NCBI GenBank assembly: GCA_040755895.1
Contig: JBFMAG010000120.1
Coordinates: forward strand, 1 to 33,357
DNA: 33,357 nucleotides
Origin: Actinomycetota bacterium
Lineage (GTDB): Bacteria > Actinomycetota > Aquicultoria > Subteraquimicrobiales > Subteraquimicrobiaceae
Reading direction: 5' to 3'
Shown in pieces: positions 84 to 26,565 of this stretch (its first letter is position 1; every line of letters starts with the position of its first letter). The translations under genes were made by a program, and so were the position numbers. The notes beneath the pieces are model-generated. The model was not told where the DNA came from and made no database searches. It worked only from the letters and a program-made list of their open reading frames with translations.

Positions 84-3000
84 GTGATTGTGGAGTTGAG
101 AAATTCAGATAAATTAAAAAGATATCTTGAGAACTACCTCAAGAAAATTCACAAGGTTTACATAGATGGAGACTTTACAGAAGAAAGTTTTTATTCTGCA
201 TTAAGCTACCTTATTGAAGAATGTTCTAAACTCTTTGGTAAACTAGCGGGCGTAACTGTTGTCCCCAGAAAAACCGAAGCAGGCATCCCCGATTTCCTTG
301 TTAAACGCAATGGAGAAATTATAGGTTATATTGAGGCAAAAGTTCCAGATGCAAACCTGAAAGACATAGAAGATTCTAAACAATTAAAAAGATATCTTGA
401 ATCGCTTCCGAATCTGGTTTTAACCAATTTTTTGGAATTCAGGCTATACAGACAAGGTAAATTTGTAGAGCAAGTAGAAGTTGGTCGCCAATTTATTTTA
501 CAAAGATTAGAATACCCACCTGTTCCTGAGAGGATAAAACAATTCTTTGAGCTCTTAGAGAAATTTTTCTCTTTTTCCACACCATCGATAAAAACTTCAT
601 TCCATCTCTCTATCGAACTCGCAAAAAGAACCCGATTCCTTGAACATCTCTTACAAGAAGAGCTTTCAAAAGAAAACGAAGAGATAAAAAGATTTTACAA
701 GGCTTTTCAAGAAGTATTGATAGGAACTTTAACCCCAGAGAGATTTGCCGATCTTTATGCTCAAACCATCACCTATGGATTATTCGCAGCAAGAATGCGC
801 GTTAAAAATGGGTTCAATAAAGATAACGCCTGGAGGTTTATTCCAGGAAGTTTGCTATTACTTAGGGATATCTTCTATTCATTTACAGGACCACATTTCC
901 CAGAATCGCTGTCCTGGATCGTTGATGACATCACCCAACTTTTAGAGAAAGCTGATGTTTCATCCATTCTTGAGGAATTTAAAACAACGCGTTGGGAAGA
1001 AGATCCCGTAATCCATTTTTACGAAACATTCCTTGCTACTTACAACCCCAAAGAAAGAGAGAGGCTTGGAGTTTATTATACACCTTTACCTGTGGTTTCT
1101 TATATCGTGAGATCAATTCATATCCTTTTAAAGGAAAGGTTTAATAAATCCGAGGGGCTCGCTAATAGAGATGTGACTCTTCTTGATCCAGCAGCTGGAA
1201 CTTTGACTTTTGTAGTCCAAGCAATTAAACAGACCCGGAATGAGTTAGAAGAAAAAAGAAAAGGTGGTCTTATAAGATCCTATATTGAAGAGCACATCTT
1301 ACCCCATTTTTATGCCTTTGAAATCCTTGTTGCTCCATATACAGTTGGGCATTTTAAGATCACAAGGATACTTGAGGAGATGGGCTATCAGTTTAAAGAA
1401 AACGAGCGATTCCAGTTCTACCTAACCAATACTTTAGAAATGAAGGAGCCTAAACAAATAAGCCTTCTTGTCGACCTTACCAAGGAGGGGCAAGCAGCTA
1501 AGAAGATAAAAGAGAAAATTCCTATCTTGGTTATCCTTGGAAACCCTCCGTATTCAGTAAGTTCAGAAAATAAATCTGAATTTATTGAAAAATTGATGGA
1601 GGACTATAAAGAGGATGTAAGAGATGAACGTAACATTCAGCCACTTTCTGACGATTACATTAAATTTATCCGCTTTGCCCATTGGAAAATTGACCAGGCA
1701 GGAAACGGAATTATTGGCTATATCTCCAATAACTCCTATCTTTCTGGAGTGATTCACCGAGGAATAAGACGAAAGCTCTTTGAGACGTTCGACGAGATTT
1801 ACATTTTGAACCTGCACGGCTCTTCAAGAATCAGGGAAAAGACACCTGAGGGCGGAAAGGATGAAAACGTCTTTGATATACAGCAAGGTGTCACCATTGT
1901 CCTTTATGTGAAACTTGAAAAACCACTTGAACAGAAGAAGGTTTATTATGCCGACCTTTGGGGAGTGAGAAGCGAGAAATATGGATACCTTTTTGAGAAC
2001 GACGTGTGCACAACCAAGTGGCAGGAACTCGAACCTGTCGCTCCCTACTACTTCTTCGTTCCCAAGGATTTCGCCTTGCAGGAGGAGTACGAGAAATTCT
2101 GGAAGGTGACGGAGATTTTTAAGGAGTGGTCGAGCGGGATAACAACGCATCGAGATCATTTCGTGGTGGGATTTACAAAAGAAGGGATACTCCAAAGGCT
2201 TAGGATATTCACGGGGAGATTACCCGATGAACTGGTTGCTCAAAGCTTGAACCTTAAGGATACAGGAACTTGGAAGTTAACTGAGGCAAGACAAAAGATT
2301 AGAGATCAAAGCCCTGAAGATAAGATTTATCCTTATGCTTACCGACCTTTCGATGTTAGATTTGTCTGCTACGAATCAACTTTAATAGATAGACCTAGAT
2401 TGCCTTTTATGAAGAATTTGCTAGCAGAAAATTTAGGTTTAGCATTGGTACGAATACTCTCTAAATTGCCATTCTCTCATGCCTTCGTCTCAAAATGTTT
2501 AACGAATAGAGAGCTTGTCTCTGTTAGAACAAAAGAAAGAACTTACGTTTTCCCACTCTACCTCTACCCGGATGAACCCGAAGGGCGGCTTTTTCGTGAG
2601 GGGGCGCCTGAAGCGGAGCGCGTCCCCAACTTCACCGCTGAGTTCCTGCAAGCTGTGAAAGAATCGCTGGGCACAGAGCCGACCCCAGAGGAGCTCTTCT
2701 ACTACATCTACGCTGTCCTCTACTCCCCCACCTACCGCAAACGCTACCAGGAATTTCTCAAAATAGACTTTCCCAGAGTTCCTCTCTCTGCGGATCATAA
2801 ACTTTTCAAGACTCTAAGCGGTCTCGGTAAGGAACTCGCTGAGCTTCATCTACTTAAACATCCGGCTCTCCAAGAAGCTGAAGTTGGTTTTCCAGAAAGT
2901 GGCTCCAATAAAATTGAGAAGATTCACTACGATGAAAAAAGGGGAAGGGTTTACTTCAATAAAGATCAGTATTTTGAAGGCATCTCAAAAGATATCTGGG

Positions 3001-3176
3001 AATATCGCATTGGAGCCTATCAAGTAATGGATAAATACCTAAGAGATAGAAAAGGACGTAGACTTTCTATAGATGAAATTGAGCACTATATGAAGGTCGC
3101 AAAGGCAATAAGATTAACGATCGATTTACAACAAAAAATCGATGGTATCTTCAAGGAAATAGTTTCTTCATTATAA
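84..3176 (+). CDS. Single-chain (Type IIG / ISP-like) restriction-modification enzyme with N6-adenine methylase
   Basis: A single polypeptide of about 1030 residues that probably cuts and methylates DNA at one recognition sequence. The N-terminus has a PD-(D/E)xK-like nuclease signature: PD at residues 69-70 and E84-A-K86. The methylase core shows motif I DPAAG from D368 (SAM binding) and motif IV NPPY at 487-490, the catalytic motif of amino-methyltransferases acting on adenine. The C-terminal half, with a YAYRPFD motif, resembles the specificity region of Type ISP/Eco57I-like enzymes. No helicase motifs are visible, so this is not a full Type ISP translocating enzyme. Start: GTG at 84 sits on the Shine-Dalgarno; GTG at 90, with AAAGGAG five bases upstream, is the better start. 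It lies just upstream of an integrase and looks like element cargo. GC content changes sharply inside the gene. Recognition specificity cannot be read from the sequence. Confidence 0.9.
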   Translation: MIVELRNSDKLKRYLENYLKKIHKVYIDGDFTEESFYSALSYLIEECSKLFGKLAGVTVVPRKTEAGIPDFLVKRNGEIIGYIEAKVPDANLKDIEDSKQLKRYLESLPNLVLTNFLEFRLYRQGKFVEQVEVGRQFILQRLEYPPVPERIKQFFELLEKFFSFSTPSIKTSFHLSIELAKRTRFLEHLLQEELSKENEEIKRFYKAFQEVLIGTLTPERFADLYAQTITYGLFAARMRVKNGFNKDNAWRFIPGSLLLLRDIFYSFTGPHFPESLSWIVDDITQLLEKADVSSILEEFKTTRWEEDPVIHFYETFLATYNPKERERLGVYYTPLPVVSYIVRSIHILLKERFNKSEGLANRDVTLLDPAAGTLTFVVQAIKQTRNELEEKRKGGLIRSYIEEHILPHFYAFEILVAPYTVGHFKITRILEEMGYQFKENERFQFYLTNTLEMKEPKQISLLVDLTKEGQAAKKIKEKIPILVILGNPPYSVSSENKSEFIEKLMEDYKEDVRDERNIQPLSDDYIKFIRFAHWKIDQAGNGIIGYISNNSYLSGVIHRGIRRKLFETFDEIYILNLHGSSRIREKTPEGGKDENVFDIQQGVTIVLYVKLEKPLEQKKVYYADLWGVRSEKYGYLFENDVCTTKWQELEPVAPYYFFVPKDFALQEEYEKFWKVTEIFKEWSSGITTHRDHFVVGFTKEGILQRLRIFTGRLPDELVAQSLNLKDTGTWKLTEARQKIRDQSPEDKIYPYAYRPFDVRFVCYESTLIDRPRLPFMKNLLAENLGLALVRILSKLPFSHAFVSKCLTNRELVSVRTKERTYVFPLYLYPDEPEGRLFREGAPEAERVPNFTAEFLQAVKESLGTEPTPEELFYYIYAVLYSPTYRKRYQEFLKIDFPRVPLSADHKLFKTLSGLGKELAELHLLKHPALQEAEVGFPESGSNKIEKIHYDEKRGRVYFNKDQYFEGISKDIWEYRIGAYQVMDKYLRDRKGRRLSIDEIEHYMKVAKAIRLTIDLQQKIDGIFKEIVSSL

Positions 3177-3215
3177 AGAGAAAGCTTCGCAAGAGGGATT
3201 TTAGATTTTAAATAG

Positions 3216-3227
3216 CCCCAAAAGGGG
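3216..3227 (+). promoter_or_regulatory. Short hairpin just upstream of the integrase ribosome-binding site
   Basis: CCCC-AAAA-GGGG forms a small perfect hairpin immediately before the purine-rich GGAAGGGGGTG that serves as the integrase ribosome-binding site. The CCCC could pair with either G-run, so it might dampen translation. A regulatory role is inferred from position only. Confidence 0.3.
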
Positions 3228-3245
3228 AAGGGGGTGAAATAAAAA

Positions 3246-4361
3246 ATGGCAACCGGTTTCGTGACTAAGAAAGGCGAAAATTATTATATCGTGTACCCAC
3301 ATCCCTTAACTAAAAAGCCGAAATGGAGAGCTGCTGGGAAAAATAAAAAGAATGCAGAGAGGATGTTAGCCGAGGTAATGAACGAGATCCATAGTGGAGT
3401 TTACCGAGACCCGAAGGAGATATCATTTACTGAATTTGCCTTAAAGTTCCTAAAGGACTATGCTCAAGGACAGGTTAAACCCTCAACCCTTCAAAGCTAT
3501 GAGGGATACATCAAGAACCATCTCATTCCCTATTTCGGGCAAGTAAAACTCATGCAGATTGGCGCCGATTTTGTTCAGGGTTTAGTATCCTCCAAGGTTG
3601 AAGAGAAAAAGCTTTCACCAAAGACAATCTCAAACATGGTCACCTTATTGAAGGAGATGTTCAAATATGCGGTCATTTGGGGATACTTAAAAGAAAATCC
3701 AGCGACCTACGTGAAAAAACCGAGGATAGAAAGATGTGAGATGAACTTCCTGACGCCCCAAGAGATGAGGCTCTTTTTGAACAATGTGAATCCCAAATAT
3801 TATTCCCTATTCTTAACGGCTTGTCTTACGGGGTTGAGGCGTGGAGAGCTTTTGGGTTTGAAATGGGATGATATTGACTGGAATTCCCACACGATCTTCG
3901 TAAGAAGGGCTCTTTACAAGGGTAGGTTTATAACTCCCAAGTCAAAAAATTCTATTCGCAGGGTGAACATGCCACCCACACTAAGAGATGTTCTTTTTGA
4001 GCATAAAATAAATGCTCCAGCGAGCGATAGGGATTTGGTGTTTACAACGAGCAAAGGCACACCCCTGGATCCGGATGTTTTAGTAAGGCGGGAATTCCTC
4101 CCGGCCTTAAGACGGGCTGGCTTGAGGAGGATTAGATTCCACGACCTCAGACACAGCTACGCAGCAATGCTCATACACCAGGGCGAGAACATCAAATACA
4201 TCCAGAACCAACTGGGGCATGCCTCAGCTCAAACCACACTCGACCGCTATGGGCATCTTCTACCCGAGGTCCACAATCACGCTTCCCTTAAATTAGAAAA
4301 GCAAATTTTTGGCAATTTCGATAGAAAAATAATAGAAATTGGCCAAAAAAGAAGCTTTTGA
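3246..4361 (+). CDS. int: Tyrosine recombinase / phage-type integrase
   Basis: A 371-residue site-specific recombinase. The N-terminal part has an arm-type DNA-binding region (about 1-60) and a SAM-like core-binding domain (about 62-150). The catalytic domain follows, with the expected residues: Arg in TGLRRGEL (about R198), a Lys in the beta-hairpin TPKSKNS region (about 232-234), HDLRH (H299, R302), LGHAS (H325) and the nucleophile Y335 in LDRYGH. Length and architecture match tRNA-targeting integrases of integrative elements. The gene runs toward, and ends 45 bp from, the 3' end of an initiator tRNA gene, the classic place for such an enzyme beside its attachment site. The element would therefore extend leftward and include the restriction-modification gene. 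No excisionase is visible in the window. Confidence 0.93.
   Translation: MATGFVTKKGENYYIVYPHPLTKKPKWRAAGKNKKNAERMLAEVMNEIHSGVYRDPKEISFTEFALKFLKDYAQGQVKPSTLQSYEGYIKNHLIPYFGQVKLMQIGADFVQGLVSSKVEEKKLSPKTISNMVTLLKEMFKYAVIWGYLKENPATYVKKPRIERCEMNFLTPQEMRLFLNNVNPKYYSLFLTACLTGLRRGELLGLKWDDIDWNSHTIFVRRALYKGRFITPKSKNSIRRVNMPPTLRDVLFEHKINAPASDRDLVFTTSKGTPLDPDVLVRREFLPALRRAGLRRIRFHDLRHSYAAMLIHQGENIKYIQNQLGHASAQTTLDRYGHLLPEVHNHASLKLEKQIFGNFDRKIIEIGQKRSF
4306..4350. repeat. Inverted repeat at the 3' end of the integrase gene, near the presumed att site
   Basis: Left arm TTTTTGGCAATTTC (4306-4319) and right arm GAAATTGGCCAAAAAA (4335-4350) are complementary with a single-base bulge and a 15-base AT-rich spacer. 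They overlap the last integrase codons. No T-run follows on either strand in the right phase, so a terminator is unlikely. The position beside the tRNA suggests integrase or accessory-factor binding, which is inference. Confidence 0.5.
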
Positions 4362-4406
4362 GATTTTGAATTTTTCAAGAACCTACAATTTTAGCTGGGG
4401 ATTTAA

Positions 4407-4483
<77 letters not shown>

Positions 4484-11414: not shown

Positions 11415-13199
11415 TCAACTCCCCCCTCCACGAGCCATCTCACCTATAGGAGTGGGGGTCTTGAGCTCGGAAATTACCTCTTTCTCAAGCTCACCGAAGG
11501 TCTCCAACTCCCCCTCCGGAACATATTTAGCCTTGGCAATTTTCTCTCTAATGGGAGTGTTTAAGATATCCTGCAGGGGTTTGCCATCCTCCAGAGCCTG
11601 CAAGGCTTGATGATGGAAGGTCATGATCAACTTGAGCATCAGGTACTGCTTCTTAAGGGAAGTGAAGGTATCATCCATATGATACGCATTTTGCTGCAGA
11701 AAATCCTCCCTAATGGACTTGGCCGTTTCCATGACCACCCGCTCATGGGTGGATAAGGCCTCGATTCCAACGAGCCTTACTATCTCCTTCAGTTCGGATT
11801 CCCTCTGTAAAATTCTCATGGCCTCGTCATGTAAATCCCTAAAGTCTGGTGATATCTCCTCCGACCAATGTTCCTTTATCTTATCCAGATAGAGAGAATA
11901 ACTGATGAGCCAGTCGATTGCCGGGAAATGCCTCTGGTAAGCGAGCCAGTCCACCAATCCCCAGAAGACTTTGACGACGCGCAGGGTATTTTGAACCACG
12001 GGCTCGGAAAGATCGCCACCGGGTGGAGAAACGGAGCCTATTACGGTGATGGAGCCCTCACGATTTTTGCTTCCCAGACAGACTACTCTCCCTGCCCTCT
12101 CATAGAAAGCCGCGAGCCTCGTACCCAGATAAGCTGGGAAACCCTCCTCTCCGGGCATCTCCTCGAGCCTCCCCGATATTTCCCTCAAGGCTTCCGCCCA
12201 TCTCGAGGTGGAATCGGCCTGAAGAGCGACGTTGTATCCCATATCCCTAAAGTATTCGGCAATGGTAATTCCGGTATAAACGGATGCCTCCCTGGCAGCT
12301 ACGGGCATATTTGAGGTGTTGGCGATCAAAACCGTTCGCTTCATGAGGGGCTGTCCGGTATACGGATCGATGAGCTCGGGAAAATCTATCAAGACCTCGG
12401 TCATCTCATTCCCTCGTTCACCGCAGCCGATGAATAGGATTATTTCTGCATCCGCCCATCTGGAAAATTGATGTTGAATTACAGTTTTCCCGCTTCCGAA
12501 GGGTCCGGGGACACAAGCTGTTCCGCCTTTAGCCACGGGGAAAAAGGCATCCACCACCCGTTGTCCCGTGACCAATGGTATAGCAGGGGGTAGCTTCTCC
12601 TTATAGGGACGGGGTCTTCTCACGGGCCATCTCTGGAGCATTCTGATGGGATGCTCTTTGCCATCCTCGGATACCACGATGGCTACGGTATCCTCAACGG
12701 TAAACTCACCCGAGTATATCTCCTTGACCGCGCCTTCTATCCCCGGGGGGACCATGATGCGGTGTTCGATTATGGGAGTTTCCTGTACCACGCCTATGAT
12801 ATCACCGGGAGAGACCTTATCGCCGGAGGAAACCTTGGGTACAAAGGTCCATTTCTTTGTCCTATCCAAACCCGGCTCCTCCACACCGCGAACCACGAAA
12901 TCACCAATTTTGCTTCGGATGATATCCAGGGGGCGTTGCACTCCATCGTAAATGGATTGAAGAAGCCCTGGTCCAAGCTCCACACTTAGGGGCTCGCCGG
13001 TGTCATAAACGGGGTCTCCGGGACCCAATCCCACGGTCTCCTCGTAAACCTGGATGGATGCAGTATCTCCCCTGAGTTCGATGATCTCTCCCATGAGCCT
13101 CTGATGGCCCACTTTAACCAGGTCATACATCTTTGCACCCTCAAGGCCCTCGGCCACTACGAGGGGACCTGATACCTTTATGATCCTGCCTTGCCTCAT
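11415..13199 (-). CDS. atpA: V-type ATP synthase/ATPase catalytic subunit A
   Basis: 594 residues, catalytic subunit hydrolysing or making ATP. The Walker A motif GPFGSGKT is at residues 232-239. The non-homologous insert that distinguishes V/A-type A from F-type beta lies between about 110 and 190. The signature [20 protein letters not shown] is present, followed by [13 protein letters not shown]. Length is as expected. It is preceded by a 97-bp intercistronic gap that can fold into a long imperfect stem, and followed one base later by atpB. Confidence 0.97.
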
Positions 13200-14635: not shown

Positions 14636-15335
14636 TCTCTTCTTTTAAACTGGTTAGTGGCGTTGTTTGGTGATTAGTGATTCGCTTTCCTTCGTCCTTC
14701 GCCCCTCGTCCTTCGTCCTTCAACCTTGAACTTTCAACCTCTCCAAAGAGTGTTTTTAATACTTGGGGCTCTATTTCCTCTCTCAGTGTTTCGAGCAGTG
14801 CAGGGAAAGAGTTATTCGCCTCGATTTTATCCGACCTAAGGATAAAACCACCTCTTATATCCCTCGTTTCCTCGGCTAATTTTAAGTTGCCCTTCTTGCC
14901 TTGTTTAACTAAGATAGAATTTACCTCTTCCACAAAATTGTTGGTGATTCGCTCCCTATCGCGGGGTGAGAGGATGATTTCCTCCTTTCCCGTTGTCGCT
15001 GCATTTACTATCATCTTTTTCAACAGCTCTTGATATTCCTTGGATCGGAGAGATAAGAGTTTGTCCAAAGCTCCTTTAAAGGCGGCTCCCACAGCATCTT
15101 GTTTTTGAGAGAGGATGGAATTGCGAGCTTCCAGCCGAGCCAGAGATAATATCCTTTTCTTCTCCCCCTCAGCCTGAGCTTGAGCAGTGGCAAGAATTTT
15201 AGATTTTATGGATTCTGCTTCCTTCCCCGCCGACTCCAGGATCTCATCCGCCTTCGCCTTCGCCTCATCCCTTATGTAGCTGGCGTCTTTTTCAGCATCG
15301 CTTTTGATTCGCTCGAGTATTTTCTCTATAGGCAT
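14610..15335 (-). CDS. atpE: V-type ATP synthase/ATPase subunit E (peripheral stalk) with repeat-derived C-terminal tail
   Basis: 241 residues. The first 200 or so are a normal subunit E: a long N-terminal helix (IKSDAEKDASYIRDEAKAKA) that pairs with subunit H/G, and a C-terminal head ending about LKTLFGEVE. The last 40 residues (from SSRLKDEGRGAKDEG onward) are extra. Their DNA contains near-tandem GAAGGACGA units and then a run that reads on into atpC. The tail is low in complexity and unlike other E subunits I know, so I infer that an intergenic repeat removed the normal stop. It follows atpK by 24 bp. Confidence 0.92.
   Translation of the reverse strand: MPIEKILERIKSDAEKDASYIRDEAKAKADEILESAGKEAESIKSKILATAQAQAEGEKKRILSLARLEARNSILSQKQDAVGAAFKGALDKLLSLRSKEYQELLKKMIVNAATTGKEEIILSPRDRERITNNFVEEVNSILVKQGKKGNLKLAEETRDIRGGFILRSDKIEANNSFPALLETLREEIEPQVLKTLFGEVESSRLKDEGRGAKDEGKRITNHQTTPLTSLKEENDKVADFY
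14672..14740. repeat. GAAGGACGA-type short-period repeat read as the atpE tail
   Basis: On the minus strand, units close to GAAGGACGA occur four times in a row with small changes (including GAGGGGCGA), flanked by TTCAAGGTTGAAGG. A similar string (AGGTTCAAGGTTGAAGG on the minus strand) occurs in the intergenic gap near 32780-32800. That suggests a dispersed repeat rather than coding sequence. Confidence 0.5.
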
Positions 15336-15359: not shown

Positions 15360-15848
15360 TTACATACCAGCTTTTATGGAGAGTAAGAGAATGATTGAGA
15401 CTATCAACGATAGTGCAGCGTAAGTTTCCACCAAGGCAGGGAGAATCAACGCTTTACCAGCTTCCTCTGTTCTTTTAGCAACCATGCCCGCGGCACCCAC
15501 CGAGGTCAATCCCTGATAAATCGCCGAAACCAGACACGCGAAACAGACTGGCATACATGCGAGGAAAATTTGAAATCCCTGAGGGGATGTTAATTTACCA
15601 CCCTCTCCACCAATGAGTCCAAAGAAGAAGACGACCAAAACGGCGGTGATGAAACCGTAAATTCCCTGGGTTCCAGGTATGGCACAAAGGGGAAGAAGCC
15701 CTCCAAATTTTTCAGGGTCTTCCACAAGTATTCCAGCTGCGACATTTGCTATGTAGGTGATGCCGATTGAGGAACCGATTCCTCCCCCAATTGCCGCGGC
15801 TGCTGCCCCTGCAAGAGCCCAATGAAATCCAGATAATCCCAAAATCAT
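15360..15848 (-). CDS. atpK: V-type ATP synthase/ATPase proteolipid subunit K (rotor ring, Na+-type residues)
   Basis: 162 residues in four transmembrane helices, a double-hairpin proteolipid like Enterococcus hirae NtpK. The ion-carrying glutamate is present only in the second hairpin (Glu141 in LVETYAALS). The residues that bind Na+ in NtpK have counterparts here: PGTQG gives Thr60 and Gln61, YQG gives Gln112, plus Glu141. The first ligand (a leucine backbone in NtpK) is Ile57. This set predicts Na+ rather than H+ translocation, though that is inferred from residues alone. Gly-rich GAAAAAIGGGIGSSIG in helix 1 is typical. It is followed by atpE. Confidence 0.95.
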   Translation of the reverse strand: MILGLSGFHWALAGAAAAAIGGGIGSSIGITYIANVAAGILVEDPEKFGGLLPLCAIPGTQGIYGFITAVLVVFFFGLIGGEGGKLTSPQGFQIFLACMPVCFACLVSAIYQGLTSVGAAGMVAKRTEEAGKALILPALVETYAALSLIVSIILLLSIKAGM

Positions 15849-18526: not shown

Positions 18527-18570
18527 TCGATTTCATTTTACAAAATTTTGATTCTTCTCCATTTTTAGTG

Positions 18571-18730
18571 GATATCTTTTTCTCTCCTTTGATGGGAACA
18601 TATCTTTTTGTTTCCCTCCCTTGATAGTAGAAATCTTTTTGTCTTCCCCTCCCTTGATGGGAGGGGATTGAGGGAGGGTGCTCAGGTTTCAATCACCCCC
18701 ACCTTCATCCTCCCCCGTCAAGGGGGAGGA
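18571..18730. repeat. Degenerate direct repeats running into a large fold-back element
   Basis: Three degraded direct copies of a unit like TATCTTTTTGTCTTCCCTCCCTTGATGG-like sequence start near 18573, 18601 and 18633. The third runs into an imperfect inverted repeat. Its left arm, about 18645-18680, includes GATGGGAGGGGATTGAGGG. Its right arm, about 18694-18730, is the complement of GACGGGGGAGGATGAAGG. The loop is about 13 bases. The gap 18527-18782 holds no convincing gene, and the element lies between the ATPase promoter and the Cys-rich gene. Confidence 0.65.
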
Positions 18731-18782
18731 AAACATGGAGAAGAGCCTTAATTTTTGATTAATGTTTTTACATGAGGCAACA

Positions 18783-18992: not shown

Positions 18993-19025
18993 CGAAATCA
19001 CCTTCGGCAACAAATTTTACTACAC

Positions 19026-20229
19026 TTACTTCAGATACTCCTCCGGTACCTCTCCAGCTTTCACAATGGCCAATTTGGTACAGGGGGGACCGATAAACTC
19101 CAAGATAAATGTGGTGGCAGCAATGACATTTATAATCAAAATGCCTAAATGCGCACCCTGCGCCCCAAAATGTCTAAAGGTATGGGAGGCATCGATGGCC
19201 AGACCGATGGCCACACCCGCCTGAGGGTAGTAACCCCAATCCCACATACTTTCTCACGGTTTCTGGAGCATCTGTGATCGCTGCTCCGAAGTACGCGCCG
19301 AGACTTTTGCCCAGAGCCCTCATCAAGATGTAGATTAGACCAAGTAGACCAAGCTTGGGCAATAGACCGAGCTGCAATTTTACTCCCACGAGAACAAAGA
19401 AGAGGAGATAAATGGGAGGAGTAATATTCCTCATGGCATCAAACGCCACCCTATTCTTGGTCGAAAGGTTGATGAAAGTTATCCCCAAAGCCATATTTGT
19501 TAGGATTAGGGAAAAGTGGAATCGCAGTGCCAGACCTGCACACAGCATAATGGCACCCAAACAAATGATTAAAAACTCATACTGCTCACGAATCTTCGTG
19601 GCTACATAGTTTAATACGATTCCAATGGTCACACCAACAAGTAGAGAACCCAGAATTTCCAGCAAAGGACGGTCCATCAGGGAGAGGGCTAATAAATTTT
19701 TGGTGCCAACGATGAGCGCCTTTGCGACAGAGGAGGTAAAGGCATAGGTCATTAAAGCAGCGGCATCATCGAGACCGACCACGGCGAAGAGGGTTGTGGT
19801 TAAAGAGCCTTCGGCATGATATTGCCAAAGAACGCTCACGGTTGCCGCTGGAGCCGTAGCCGAAGCTATTGCGCCAAAAATGAGAGCGATGGGCCAACTC
19901 TTCGTCAAAAGGAATACAGAGAATAATACCAAGAGAGAAGCGGCTAAAGCCTCAAACACCGTGATGCTGAGGATACTCGTTCCCAACTCTCTTATTTCAC
20001 TGAATTTGAGTTCTCCCCCGATGGTGAAGCCTATAAGCGCCAGAGCTAAGTTGCTAATCACCCCCAGGTTTTCAGACATCCTTAAGGTGACCAGGTTGAA
20101 ACACGACGATCCCAACAAAACGCCGATGAACATATATCCCACAACATGGGGAATCCTTATTTTGCCGCTCAGCCATGCTCCACAAAATCCTAAAATGAGG
20201 AGTGTTCCTAATAACAAAAAGATGTTCAC
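19026..20229 (-). pseudogene. CPA2-type Na+(K+)/H+ antiporter, one frameshift
   Basis: A monovalent cation:proton antiporter of about 400 residues, with about 12 hydrophobic segments. The first 335 or so residues are read from GTG 20229 and include the ion-binding pair in GLDDAA and an unwound-helix segment ATAPAATVSVL. The frame then breaks: KYVGLGLLP continues as SGGCGH, whereas the other frame gives QAGVAIGLAIDASHT, the expected family sequence, and runs to a stop at 19026. Removing one C from the CCC at 19225-19227 (GGG on the plus strand) restores the protein. It may be a sequencing error or a recent mutation. The GTG start has AGGAGGTG unusually far upstream (14 bases). Confidence 0.85.
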
Positions 20230-20326
20230 TTCAGGTTTGGCAACACCTCCTAAAGGCTCTGAAAACCTTTTAAGGATAATTCATCGAAAATCGCAATTAA
20301 GTTTATAGGGTGAGATTAGCTAAAAT

Positions 20327-20765
20327 TTAACCTTCTTCCATAAGAGAGCGGCAGAGCTCAGCCCGGCTCACTACTCCCACCAGTTTTCCTTCCCTCACAA
20401 CAGGTAAAATCTTCAATCCCCTAGCCATCATAATCTCCGCTGCATGGAGGATAGTATCATCTTCAGTAACACAAACCGCTTCTTTGGTCATGAAATCCTT
20501 GACATAACGCTCCCCTACTTGGATCATCCTTCGAGCTAACACTGCAAAATCACGAACGAAAAACTCGTCCGTTCTGCCAAATTGCCCGGGAAAGGCGGAT
20601 TCGATTATGTCCTTTTCGGTGATGATGCCCATAAGTCGGTGCTCATCATCGACCACCGGCACGCCGGAAAATCTATGACGAGCCAATATCCTAGCTGCCT
20701 CTTTCAGAGTAGTATTCTCGGAAACAGCTGTGAGGTCGCGGGTCATGATGTCTTTAACCCTCCAC
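20327..20765 (-). CDS. Two-CBS-domain protein (probable regulator), frameshift near its start
   Basis: About 145 residues, nearly all of it two CBS domains (MTRDLTAVSENTTLKEAARIL then VKDFMTKEAVCVTEDDTILHA), which usually bind adenine nucleotides and control channels, transporters or enzymes. An uninterrupted frame starts only at ATG 20746, with no Shine-Dalgarno at the right distance. If one G of GGG at 20758-20760 is an extra base, GTG 20765 becomes the start and gives MEVKDIMTRDL, the usual CBS N-terminus, with AAGGAGG seven bases upstream. Lying between pfkB and antiporter 1, it may sense energy state for the antiporters (inference). Confidence 0.85.
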
Positions 20766-20778
20766 CTTTTTACCTCCT

Positions 20779-21705
20779 TTAACTGTACCCAATCAAGGAA
20801 TTGCTCACCTCTTGTCGGCTTTCTATCCTATTCTCAACCTTCCTAGCCACAGCTATTGAAGCAGCCATTCCCAGTCGGATGGCTTCATCGATCGCACCGC
20901 CCTTTGCCAAAACAAAAGCCATCCCACCTATCATAGCATCTCCTACACCCACTCTGCTCACTATCTCTAAACCAGGAGCACTCGCTTCCCATATTTGCTC
21001 CGGAGTAAGCACGATATGATTTATATGATCGGAGGCGATGACCACGACTTGAACGCCTTTGGCCAAAATCCTTTGAGCCACTTCCAGTCTTCGGCGATCG
21101 GAATTGAGCCTCACCCCCATGAACTGGTCCGTAGCCCGGATATCGGCTTGACAAGAAAAGGTTGGGCCTCCAGACCCCTGATAAGTGCGGGTTCTGTGGT
21201 ATTAAGAATGGTCTTTACCCCCCTTTCTCTGGCCATGGTGATCAGCTCAGCATAAATTCCTGGTTCCACACCTTTGGGGAGACTAACCCGCAATGACGAC
21301 CATTTCACTGCGGGAAAGCGCCCTCTTGAAGGCTCTCTCAAATTCTTGAATCTCCTCGATCGAAACAAGTGGTCCCCTCTCATTGACCTGCGTTTGAGTA
21401 CGACGTGTTTCGTCTAGAATGATGTAATTTGTCCTGGTCTCCTCGGCTATATGCACAAAACTGGTGGTGATTCCAGCTTTCCTGAGTTCCTCCTCAAGAG
21501 ATTGACCAGAAGTACCCCCAACAAATCCCATGGCGATGGCTTCGGAACCAAAAGCCTGCAGAAGATACGAGACGTTTACACCCTTGCCCCCCGCCGTAGT
21601 CATTAAAACCTCCGCCCGATTTAGCCTATTCAACCTCAAGCTAGAGACCCTTAAGATCTTGTCCACCGCTGGATTTAGAGTCACTGTGGTAATCAAGCCT
21701 ATCAA
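20779..21705 (-). pseudogene. PfkB-family hexose-phosphate kinase (1-phosphofructokinase/tagatose-6-phosphate kinase type), two frameshifts
   Basis: The 927-bp span matches a normal protein of about 308 residues. Part one (21705 to 21283) has TLNPAVDK and GGKGVNVS, substrate-binding motifs of the FruK/LacC branch. Part three (to 20779) has the catalytic GVGDAMIGG. The middle, SLPKGVEPGIYAELI, is in another frame. An extra T in TT (21285-21286) produces a TAG after VVIAG. A missing base near 21145 returns to the original frame, restoring KP-DIRATDQFMGV. The two shifts compensate, so only about 50 codons are out of frame, but several stops fall there. TTG 21705 is too close to the G-rich Shine-Dalgarno; TTG 21696 is a better start. 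Substrate is not certain. Confidence 0.85.
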
Positions 21706-21805
21706 CCCCCTCCCCCAAACTATATCCTAAAGCAACCAATTCTAAAATTCACTTTTAATGATCCTTTCCATCTGTTTCTGTCAAATCATACCATCACTAC
21801 CACTT

Positions 21806-22962
21806 CTATTTCTCCTGAACTTCGCCCGAAGCCACCAGAGCATACCTGGTACCTATGGGTCCTAGTAATTCGCAAACAGCTACAGCTGATAACTCTATAG
21901 CCGTAATTAGAGCTGCGAATTCCGGAAATTTGCTTTGGACGATGAGAACTAGTCCTATAGTGAGTCCAGCTTTGGAGAACATGGCAAATCCCAAATATTT
22001 CTGGACCACTTTTTCCGCACCAGAAGCGGCGCACCAGCAAATACTCCGCCAACTTTACCAATTCCCCAGGCTATAACATATATTAAGGGTATTAACCAGT
22101 TTGCAGTGAGCACATCAAGGCGTAGACTGGCACCAGTTAAGGCAAAAAATACCACAAATGTGGGTAGCTCTACATCTTCCAAGAGTGTAAACACTTCTGA
22201 GCTATGAAAGTTAGCCACCGTCAATCCCATCACCATACAAAGCAACAGAGCGGAAAATCCTACCATTTCGCCTATTTCTCCCCCCAAAAGCGCCCTACTA
22301 ATAATGCGAGTACCTCGTGTCTGTCTTTTACCAACTTAAGAACATAAACCATTATAAATCCCAATACGGCTCCAAAGATTATGGAACCGCCCACTCTAAA
22401 TAATGGTGTTGTGAACATCTCTGTACTAAAACCTTTTATGCCCACTACCGCCACCACGATGGTAAACAATGTGATGCACGCTGCATCATCCAAACCCACC
22501 ACCGCTAAAAGTGTGCTAGTGAATGGACCTCTAGCTTTATATTCTCTAATTACAGCCACTGGAGATGCGGGAGCTGTAGCCGAAGCCATAGCTCCCAATA
22601 GTAAGGATATAGGAAGGGACATGCCAAGAATAAACTTTGTGGTTAGAAATACTACTACGGAAGGCACCACCTACCTGAGCCAAGGTTATTACCGTGATAC
22701 TTTTACCCAATCTCTTCAGTTTCCCGAAGTGCAATTCTCCGCCAATGATTAAGGCAATCAAAGCCAATCCTAATACCTTTATGCCTCCCAATGACTCATT
22801 CAAACTCATAGGTATGATATTTGTAGCCAAGGGACCAAGGACGATTCCGGTTATGATGTATCCAGCTACCGCTGGGAGTTTAAACAGTCTAGCTATCTTT
22901 CCTCCCACATAACCAGCCAATAATAATATGCTTACTCCTATAATTTGCTCGTGGATAGCCAT
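21806..22962 (-). pseudogene. Second CPA2-type Na+(K+)/H+ antiporter, three frameshifts
   Basis: A paralogue of antiporter 1, about 385 residues when joined, starting at ATG 22962 (MAIHEQIIGVSILLLAGYVG). Four pieces in different frames are each well preserved. An extra G near 22670 separates ITLAQV from VVFLTTKFILG. A missing G near 22293 separates HEVLALLVG from GGEIGEMVGFSALL. A missing base near 22031 separates GGVFAGA from KVVQKYLGFAMFSKAG. The GLDDAA ion-binding motif is kept. No stops other than those caused by the shifts were found. It is first in the operon, behind a strong promoter and a foldable leader. Confidence 0.82.
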
Positions 22963-22967
22963 GATTT

Positions 22968-23021
22968 AGCCAAAACCACCCTTCAATTATCTTTGATGCC
23001 ACTAAGGGTAAGTCCTTGGCT
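22968..23021 (-). promoter_or_regulatory. Structured leader of the antiporter operon
   Basis: On the minus strand, AGCCAA (23021-23016) pairs with TTGGCT (22973-22968). Within it, ACCCTT (23009-23004) pairs with AAGGGT (22983-22978), giving two coaxial helices just before the ATG. The inner helix includes GAAGGGTGG, the only purine-rich string that could be a ribosome-binding site, so folding would hide it. I do not recognise a known riboswitch class; regulation is inferred. Confidence 0.45.
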
Positions 23022-24638: not shown

Positions 24639-25423
24639 CGTCTCTCCTCCCTCTCAACCAACCTTTTCATCTCGGGTGGACAAATTTCAAGGTACTCACA
24701 ATAGCCCTTTTCCTCAATCTTTGAAAATATCTCATAGGGATCCCCGCTGGCAACGATCCGTCCATTACACATCACCGAGGCTCTATGTGGCCTGATGTAG
24801 GGAAGAATATGTCGATAATGGGTGACGACCAGAGAGGCACATCTCTTCTCCCTGATGTATTCACCAAGGTCAATCCCCAAAGTTTTTAAAGAGACGATAT
24901 CCACTCCGGAGTCCGGTTCATCCAGGATCATGAGTTTCGGATTAGCCGCAAAGACCTGGGCTAACTCCGACCGTTTTTTTTCTCCTCCCGAGAAGCCTAC
25001 ATTGACATCTCGAATCCAAAAGGTCTCAGGATCGAGTCCAACTTTGGATAAAAGGGCAGTAGCCAAGGTTTCCCGCTCCTCCTTTAGGGGATCCCAGGGA
25101 TCCTTTCCAGCAGCGATTCTGATCAAGTCCCTCAGTTTAACCCCTCTGATCTCGGGAGGAGTTTGAAAAGCGATGGAGATTCCCATCTTCACTCGTTCAT
25201 AAATGGGTTTGTCCTGAAGATCAATCCCGTTAAAGATGATTTTTCCCCTGGTCACCTTGTAATTGGGATATCCAAGGATGGTCATGATCAGAGTCGTCTT
25301 CCCAGAAGCATTTGGTCCCATGAGGACATGAACTTCTCCCTCTTCAACTGTGAAGTTCACATTGGTCAAAATCTCCTTACCGGAAACGGTAACGGTTAAA
25401 TCCTTTATCTCTAGTAAGCTCAC
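24635..25423 (-). CDS. sufC: SufC-type ABC ATPase for Fe-S cluster assembly
   Basis: 262 residues, soluble ABC ATPase that dimerises on SufB. Walker A GPNASGKTT is at 36-44, the ABC signature FSGGEKKR at 144-151, and Walker B LMILDEPDSGVD at 164-175, with the D-loop and switch His (VVTHYRH) following. The SufC-type Q-loop region AFQTPPEIRGV is present. It overlaps mnmA upstream and sufB downstream by four bases each, so the three genes form a tightly coupled operon. Confidence 0.95.
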   Translation of the reverse strand: MSLLEIKDLTVTVSGKEILTNVNFTVEEGEVHVLMGPNASGKTTLIMTILGYPNYKVTRGKIIFNGIDLQDKPIYERVKMGISIAFQTPPEIRGVKLRDLIRIAAGKDPWDPLKEERETLATALLSKVGLDPETFWIRDVNVGFSGGEKKRSELAQVFAANPKLMILDEPDSGVDIVSLKTLGIDLGEYIREKRCASLVVTHYRHILPYIRPHRASVMCNGRIVASGDPYEIFSKIEEKGYCEYLEICPPEMKRLVEREERR

Positions 25424-26565
25424 TTCCCTCTCCCCTCTCTGATATATCCAGAAATTGTTCCTCCGCCCACAACGATATTTCCATCGTAAAATACCGCAGC
25501 CTGACCGGGCGTGATTGCCCTTTGAGGTTCTTTAAATCTCACCCGAACCTTATCTCCTTCTAGGGGAATGATGGTTGCCGGGGCTCCCTCCGCTTTATAT
25601 CTAATCTTGACCGTAACACTCATTGGTCTTACTAATTTCTCCACCGATATGTAGTTTACCTCCTCGGCTACGAGCTCTTGCCGATATAAATCCCTTGAAG
25701 GACCCACGATGAGAGCATTTCTCTCCCCGTCGATGCTGACCACATAGAGTGGCTCCTTACCTGAAATACGCAGACCCTTGCGCTGCCCAATGGTATAAAA
25801 GAGTATCCCCCTATGCTTCCCTAGGATATTCCCCTGAGAGTCGAGAATGGGACCGGGATTGATGGCCCGCCTGCCCGTCCGGTAGGCGGGCCTGCCAGCA
25901 GGCGCGGCTTCCATATATCCTTTTAAAAACTTCCCGTAATCTCCGTCTGGGATGAAACAAATCTCCTGGCTTTCCTTCGTACCCGCAACGGGTAAGCCAA
26001 GCTTTACAGCAAGACGTCGCGTTTCATCTTTGGTGAAATTTCCCAAAGGCAATAGAATATGGGGGAGCTTCTCTTGGGTCAAGGTGTATAGGACATATGA
26101 TTGATCCTTCGTGGAATCGACACCTTTTTTTAGAATATATCTTCCTTTAAAGCTATTGAATTCGATCCTTGCGTAATGGCCAGTGGCAATAAAATCCGCC
26201 CCAAACTCCTTGGCTTTCTCAAGGAGAATACCGAACTTTATATGCTGATTGCACTTTATGCAGGGATTTGGAGTTCGACCACGAGCATATTCTCGGCAAA
26301 AGTAGTTGATCACCTTTTGAGCGAATGCTTCCCTGAAGTTCAAGGTGTAATGAGGAATATTCAGATGATCGGCCACCCGGTGCGCATCTCCTATCGCTTT
26401 GAGTGAGCAACATCCGCCAAATCTATCCACCCCCTGGGCAATTTTTGGGGATGGCCAGATTTCCATGGTTATTCCCATCACTTCGTAGCCCCATTGCTTG
26501 AGTAATGCAGCGGTGATGGAACTATCCACACCTCCACTCATAGCCACGATGACCCTCTCGGTCAT
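25420..26565 (-). CDS. mnmA: tRNA-specific 2-thiouridylase MnmA, with an in-frame palindromic insertion
   Basis: 381 residues. MnmA activates U34 of tRNA-Lys/Glu/Gln with ATP and adds sulfur. The PP-loop SGGVDSS is at 10-16. The catalytic region TPNPCIKCN gives Cys102 and Cys105, and SQEICFIPDG gives Cys203. Cys102 and Cys203 are the classical pair, and the three together match the cysteines proposed to hold an Fe-S cluster in some MnmA proteins. Residues about 219-235 (EAAPAGRPAYRTGRRA) do not belong to the usual MnmA sequence before PGPILDSQGNILG; they are encoded by a GC-rich palindrome. The insertion keeps the frame and lies in a loop between domains, so the enzyme may still work. GAGGTGG precedes the start. 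It leads the sufC-sufB operon. Confidence 0.94.
   Translation of the reverse strand: MTERVIVAMSGGVDSSITAALLKQWGYEVMGITMEIWPSPKIAQGVDRFGGCCSLKAIGDAHRVADHLNIPHYTLNFREAFAQKVINYFCREYARGRTPNPCIKCNQHIKFGILLEKAKEFGADFIATGHYARIEFNSFKGRYILKKGVDSTKDQSYVLYTLTQEKLPHILLPLGNFTKDETRRLAVKLGLPVAGTKESQEICFIPDGDYGKFLKGYMEAAPAGRPAYRTGRRAINPGPILDSQGNILGKHRGILFYTIGQRKGLRISGKEPLYVVSIDGERNALIVGPSRDLYRQELVAEEVNYISVEKLVRPMSVTVKIRYKAEGAPATIIPLEGDKVRVRFKEPQRAITPGQAAVFYDGNIVVGGGTISGYIREGRGK
25864..25910. repeat. GC-rich palindromic element inside mnmA
   Basis: GGCCCGCCT (25864-25872) and AGGCGGGCC (25884-25892) are perfect 9-bp complements around an 11-base loop, followed by a smaller palindrome CCTGC-CA-GCAGG (25891-25902). 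It is much richer in GC than its surroundings and encodes the non-family residues of MnmA. It resembles the hairpin at 4775-4796 near the NlpC/P60 start. Confidence 0.7.

Follow-up and report, generated by a model that had tools for sequence, protein, structure and literature searches.

Reading-frame breaks in a Na+/H+ antiporter operon of a Candidatus Subteraquimicrobium genome: recent gene loss or a poorly assembled stretch

Eight reading-frame breaks are concentrated in four adjacent genes of one operon in a MAG of the genus Candidatus Subteraquimicrobium (Actinomycetota), and we judge, with slightly better than even confidence, that they reflect a recent pseudogenisation of the operon. The operon was independently lost or eroded in both same-genus sister genomes, by one large deletion in the first and by two deletions in the gene for antiporter 1 in the second. 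The phenomenon is ordinary in kind: either an operon is being lost, or a stretch of the assembly is poor.

Results

The genome under study (G000) comprises 1.39 Mb in 156 contigs (completeness 97.8, contamination 1.5). The window referred to below is the whole stretch of DNA that was analysed, namely the entire contig C120 of 33,357 bases. The operon lies on the minus strand in the order antiporter 2, PfkB kinase, CBS protein, antiporter 1, and it is flanked by tRNA-Leu and suf-type genes (23.27-25.4 kb) on one side and by a V-type ATPase operon (9.3-18.5 kb) on the other. Its genes, and the segments that are absent from the two sister genomes (G001 and G002), are as follows.

21806..22962, minus strand: antiporter 2, a CPA-type Na+/H+ exchanger (PF00999 in three separate frames)
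20763..21705, minus strand: PfkB-family hexose kinase (PF00294 in two frames; best NCBIfam model TIGR03168)
20327..20761, minus strand: CBS-domain-pair protein (PF00571, two stretches)
19026..20229, minus strand: antiporter 1, CPA-type (PF00999 positions 5-328 of 375)
19098..22998, no strand: segment absent from sister G001 (blastn of the window against G001:C69, and the junction sequence)
19397..20070, no strand: antiporter 1 segment absent from sister G002 (blastn of the window against G002:C14)

Both antiporters belong to the CPA Na+/H+ antiporter family PF00999, with antiporter 1 scoring 99.8 bits and the three fragments of antiporter 2 scoring 32-40 bits against a curated cut-off of 26.2. 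The intact PfkB orthologue of G002 (322 aa) reaches 279 bits with TIGR03168 (cut-off 216). A search of the operon for Rfam families returned none.

The breaks were placed by aligning antiporter 2, PfkB and CBS with their intact counterparts in G002, and antiporter 1 with eight intact relatives. The homology of each gene is spread over two to four overlapping frames, and no one frame covers antiporter 2, PfkB or antiporter 1 from end to end. Three breaks fall in antiporter 2 (about 22660, 22294 and 22031), three in PfkB (near 21286, 21146 and 20806), one in CBS and one in antiporter 1. The antiporter 2 break near 22294, which the original prediction had taken for a one-base indel near 22293, proved in the alignment to be a four-base loss within short repeats. 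PfkB had been described as broken twice; the breaks at 21286 and 21146 were recovered, and the third near 20806, at 95% of the gene, had been missed. In CBS, the break expected at 20758-20760 was located at 20763, on the start codon, where it costs the first six residues only; because an internal ATG at 20746 leaves 139 of the 145 codons open, the CBS protein may still work. In antiporter 1, 351 codons are open before the break near 19225, only the last transmembrane part is lost, and the C-terminal part runs on, in a different frame, as far as a stop at 19026. The C-terminal homology of this shifted frame (19223-19038) to the eight intact relatives bears out the shift proposed at 19225-19227. 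Every break on the earlier list was confirmed against an intact same-genus copy, the total being eight rather than seven, so that the observation was well made, with one break missed.

Apart from the four-base loss, each break sits in a run of only one to three bases, and where the broken stretch contains six to seven consecutive G or C residues the sequence is unharmed. These contexts are unlike homopolymer errors of the pyrosequencing or nanopore type. Read in the G002 frames, the broken genes contain no in-frame stops. The frame disruption relative to intact orthologues by which bacterial pseudogenes are recognised was observed in the genes of the operon.

The base rate of such breaks was taken from 148 G002 genes (about 139 kb) with counterparts in the sampled parts of G000 or in the window. 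On the G000 side, only antiporter 2 and PfkB had sustained interior breaks; the other genes of this set, with interiors amounting to about 105 kb, had none. With eight breaks in about 3.5 kb and none in those roughly 105 kb, the clustering goes far beyond chance; uniform placing would give it a probability of about 1e-12. The remaining listed cases were gaps whose frame is restored a few codons further on, differences in the start region and shadow ORFs. Apparent breaks near gene starts elsewhere were rejected as start-codon choices or shadow ORFs, and a seeming break near 14697, in V-ATPase subunit E, was left out of the count because it sits in a variable, repeat-like tail. Barring such small gene-end differences (the V-ATPase E tail and gene starts), the claim that the remaining 29 kb of the window hold no comparable break stands. 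In the reverse direction, a 730-aa ORF of G000 (L128:6078-8270) is frame-broken in G002 (L149:13154-15334), the only clearly sustained interior break outside the antiporter genes.

Relaxed selection was not found in the broken genes by dN/dS, by stops or by an excess of amino-acid changes on the G000 branch. The dN/dS values of the three comparable genes (0.134-0.155) rank 64-95 among the 148 genes, whose median is 0.139, and the G000 genes, when read in the G002 frames, keep a strong third-position bias. With G003, a genome of the same order, as outgroup, 23 amino-acid changes in the operon fall on the G000 branch versus 29 on the G002 branch; the corresponding counts for the flanking genes are 52 and 39. 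Only 2 of the 23 changes on the G000 branch are radical, versus about 29% expected for random mutation. A very young pseudogene need not show relaxed selection, yet it would be expected where eight independent indels have accumulated.

The non-coding DNA of G000 and G002 differs by 116 small indels and 612 substitutions, that is, 0.19 indels per substitution. At that rate, seven neutral indels across the three comparable genes should be accompanied by about 38 substitutions (95% 16-75), and eight by about 40. The observed amino-acid counts have P values of 0.002-0.02 with a neutral phase versus 0.08-0.21 without one, subject to the caveats that the G002 operon may itself be relaxed, that gene-specific constraint varies and that part of antiporter 2 looks recombined. 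Because the expected substitutions are absent, either the breaks are very young or the 4-kb stretch contains indel-only sequence error. The earlier argument that the lack of stop codons speaks against old decay was right, and it has now been quantified. Within antiporter 2, identity to G002 is about 99% at 22350-22450 and far lower at 22600-22800, where synonymous sites are saturated. This suggests a recombination tract within 22350-22800, which is probably why single dN/dS windows are saturated in the first third of the gene; these were not used alone.

The sister genome G001 is Candidatus Subteraquimicrobium carltonvillense UBA2594 (Actinomycetota, Ca. Aquicultoria), of the same genus as G000. 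Here the operon is gone through one 3.9-kb deletion that joins about 19097 to about 22999 (window coordinates), with the antiporter 1 tail kept on one side and the antiporter 2 leader on the other. Since this tail remains, the operon was present in the ancestor. In G002, also of the genus, positions 19021-19154 and 19397-20070 of the window are deleted, so that antiporter 1 is a remnant, and the syntenic locus holds an intact antiporter 2 (386 aa, L020:8885-10045), PfkB (322 aa) and CBS (145 aa), the CBS orthologue overlapping the PfkB end. Elsewhere in G002, an antiporter gene on contig C3 carries one frameshift, its counterpart on G001:C97 being intact. In G003, antiporter 2 carries one frameshift (G003:C11; cassette L022). 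The PfkB-CBS-antiporter order is kept intact in class-level relatives. Scans of genome contigs confirmed no relative with antiporter 1 and revealed no further genome with the operon when the SufB-like neighbour was used. The operon is thus lost or broken in close relatives, as is expected of dispensable genes, and the comparison with same-lineage genomes that had been proposed as a check found it deleted in G001 and its antiporter 1 eroded in G002. Because the locus is lost or eroded in the sisters and intact in class-level relatives, we regard it as an old cassette that is dispensable in the genus, and the damage in the sisters and in other assemblies points to its repeated loss.

Discussion

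What produced the eight breaks? Since this operon has also been deleted or eroded in two sister species, ordinary recent gene loss is the explanation to which we incline. The Ca. Subteraquimicrobium lineage would no longer need this Na+/H+ antiporter operon, and small slippage-type insertions and deletions would recently have broken all four genes, the CBS protein perhaps still being made. Purifying selection would have acted normally on the genes until a short time before sampling, and the breaks would therefore be young, while the same cassette would have been destroyed independently in both sister genomes. If so, the breaks would lie in the DNA of the cells and not in the assembly. This reading is favoured by the confinement of eight breaks to four adjacent genes, with none sustained in about 146 other compared genes, and by the young frameshifts, one in each case, that antiporter genes carry in two further assemblies (G002:C3 and G003:C11). 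It is weakened by normal selection despite the indels, and by the presence of three breaks in each of two genes. The collective inactivation suggested at the outset therefore gains from the independent destruction of the operon in both same-genus genomes and suffers from the missing neutral-phase substitutions.

Local sequence or assembly error is a serious contender, to which we assign a substantial probability short of one half. The operon would then be truly intact, and the 4-kb stretch would have been built from few or uncorrected indel-prone reads, for example in long-read gap filling, its coverage perhaps lowered by strains without the operon. The main argument for such an error is that the genes carry indels alone: the underlying frames show purifying selection at a normal level, and neither substitutions nor stops are in excess. 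Otherwise the breaks would have to be so recent and so numerous as to require some special cause. Among bacterial genes that look like pseudogenes, many are products of misassembly, to an extent that varies with platform, assembler and coverage (PMC11017572). A strain-variable locus could have low coverage, G001 lacking the operon altogether. However, the other signs of an artefact are absent: the same assembly has no comparable errors in about 105 kb of other gene interiors, the breaks occur in runs of one to three bases with no stops, and the long homopolymers of the stretch are unharmed. Poor short reads, moreover, mainly raise internal stops rather than frameshifts (PMC11017572). The broken stretch also matches an operon that both sisters have lost or eroded, although low coverage of a variable locus could weaken this point, and two further assemblies, made independently, contain frameshifted antiporter genes. 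The earlier suspicion of low-quality assembly is thus sustained by a substitution pattern without a neutral phase and undermined by the absence of similar errors elsewhere.

A third explanation, which we consider improbable, is that the assembler merged strains with different young loss-of-function indels into a composite consensus, each real cell carrying one or two breaks. This would reconcile the many indels with the few substitutions, and it fits the recurrent loss of the operon in the genus and the single young antiporter breaks in G002 and G003; yet it needs strong parallel loss within one population, and heterogeneous indels usually break contigs and are seldom merged. Programmed ribosomal frameshifting, raised originally as the less likely option, would keep the genes functional and accords with the conservation of the frames on both sides of each break, but its probability is close to nil, as it would require up to three dispersed sites per gene, comprising gains and losses in differing contexts, with no common slippery motif seen at the break sites and no shift site in the G002 orthologues, which are read in one continuous frame.

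The pseudogenisation that we favour can be compared with known systems. In bacteria, divergence is normally accelerated little or not at all in young pseudogenes, and 346 of 378 Salmonella pseudogenes carry a single inactivating mutation (PMC2916853). The operon resembles the young pseudogenes of Salmonella (Kuo and Ochman 2010, PMC2916853) in its small indels, their restriction to one genome, the low divergence and the deletion in relatives. In contrast to them, two genes have three breaks each where most in Salmonella carry one, a whole operon is affected, and no break is a stop codon. With the spurious pseudogenes created by assembly errors (Cooley and Wright 2024, PMC11017572) it shares frame breaks without relaxed selection, and only reads separate these from real ones; unlike them, the breaks are limited to one operon, with none elsewhere in the sampled assembly and no internal stops, and sister genomes have lost or eroded this operon as well. 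The PfkB-CBS-CPA antiporter cassettes of related Actinomycetota (L006, L009, L017 and L022) have the same gene order, and their homologues share 33-67% identity with the proteins of G002 or the window, whereas in Ca. Subteraquimicrobium the cassette is broken, eroded or deleted; antiporter 2 of G003 (L022) also has one break.

Why might the operon have become unnecessary? Its loss was probably buffered by other ion-handling systems. All three genus members have a gene of the Mrp-type MNHE family, and G000 and G002 have a membrane pyrophosphatase gene (H_PPase family); the NhaC-type antiporter family PF03553 was found in none of G000-G004. In G000, PF00999 detects no CPA antiporter genes besides the broken ones, although the assembly may lack one further locus; contig C139 of G000 stops at the border of the region that holds the second antiporter (G001:C97, G002:C3). 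The rotor K subunit of the adjacent V-ATPase (window 15360-15848) contains PGTQG, the glutamine of YQG, and VETYA, which look like the Na+ ligands of Enterococcus hirae NtpK (Thr64, Gln65, Gln110 and Glu139; PMC2359735), and by residue likeness this would be a Na+-type motif. It is conceivable, though we think it unlikely, that in this order of subsurface Actinomycetota the loss of CPA-type antiporters has been favoured rather than just tolerated. The Na+/H+ economy would have moved to other pumps, with recurring young losses (frameshifts in G000, G002 and G003; deletions in G001 and G002), and the sampled population may hold several alleles.

Three closely related uncultured genomes present one operon at three stages of loss, namely frame-broken, partly eroded and cleanly deleted. 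Setting the non-coding indel/substitution ratio against the selection signature offers a read-free way to weigh pseudogenes against assembly error. Losses that are real and recurrent would have a bearing on sodium and proton handling in these bacteria.

Several other differences among the genomes were noted around the operon. V-ATPase subunit A (11415-13199) has, at about 12487, an in-frame intein-like insertion of 1.4-1.66 kb in G001 and G002, which sits at the P-loop (GPFGSGK, then C...) and ends in HSN or QSN before T; in G000 the insertion site is empty. Just downstream of the operon, at 18543-18782, is a roughly 240-base repeat-rich insertion (CTCCCTTGATGGGAG units) that is absent at the same place in G001 and G002, and parts of it match several other G002 and G001 places. 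A tRNA methyltransferase (MnmA-like) gene at 25420-26565, between sufC and an exopolyphosphatase-like gene, is missing there in G001. At 84-4483, a Type ISP restriction-modification gene and a phage-type integrase lie beside tRNA-Met; because the match to the G002 contig starts only at 4405, this region looks like a lineage-specific island. Finally, a dispersed repeat of about 270 bases is common to G000 and G002, occurring at L076:6210-6483 on G002:C3 and at about fifteen places in G000.
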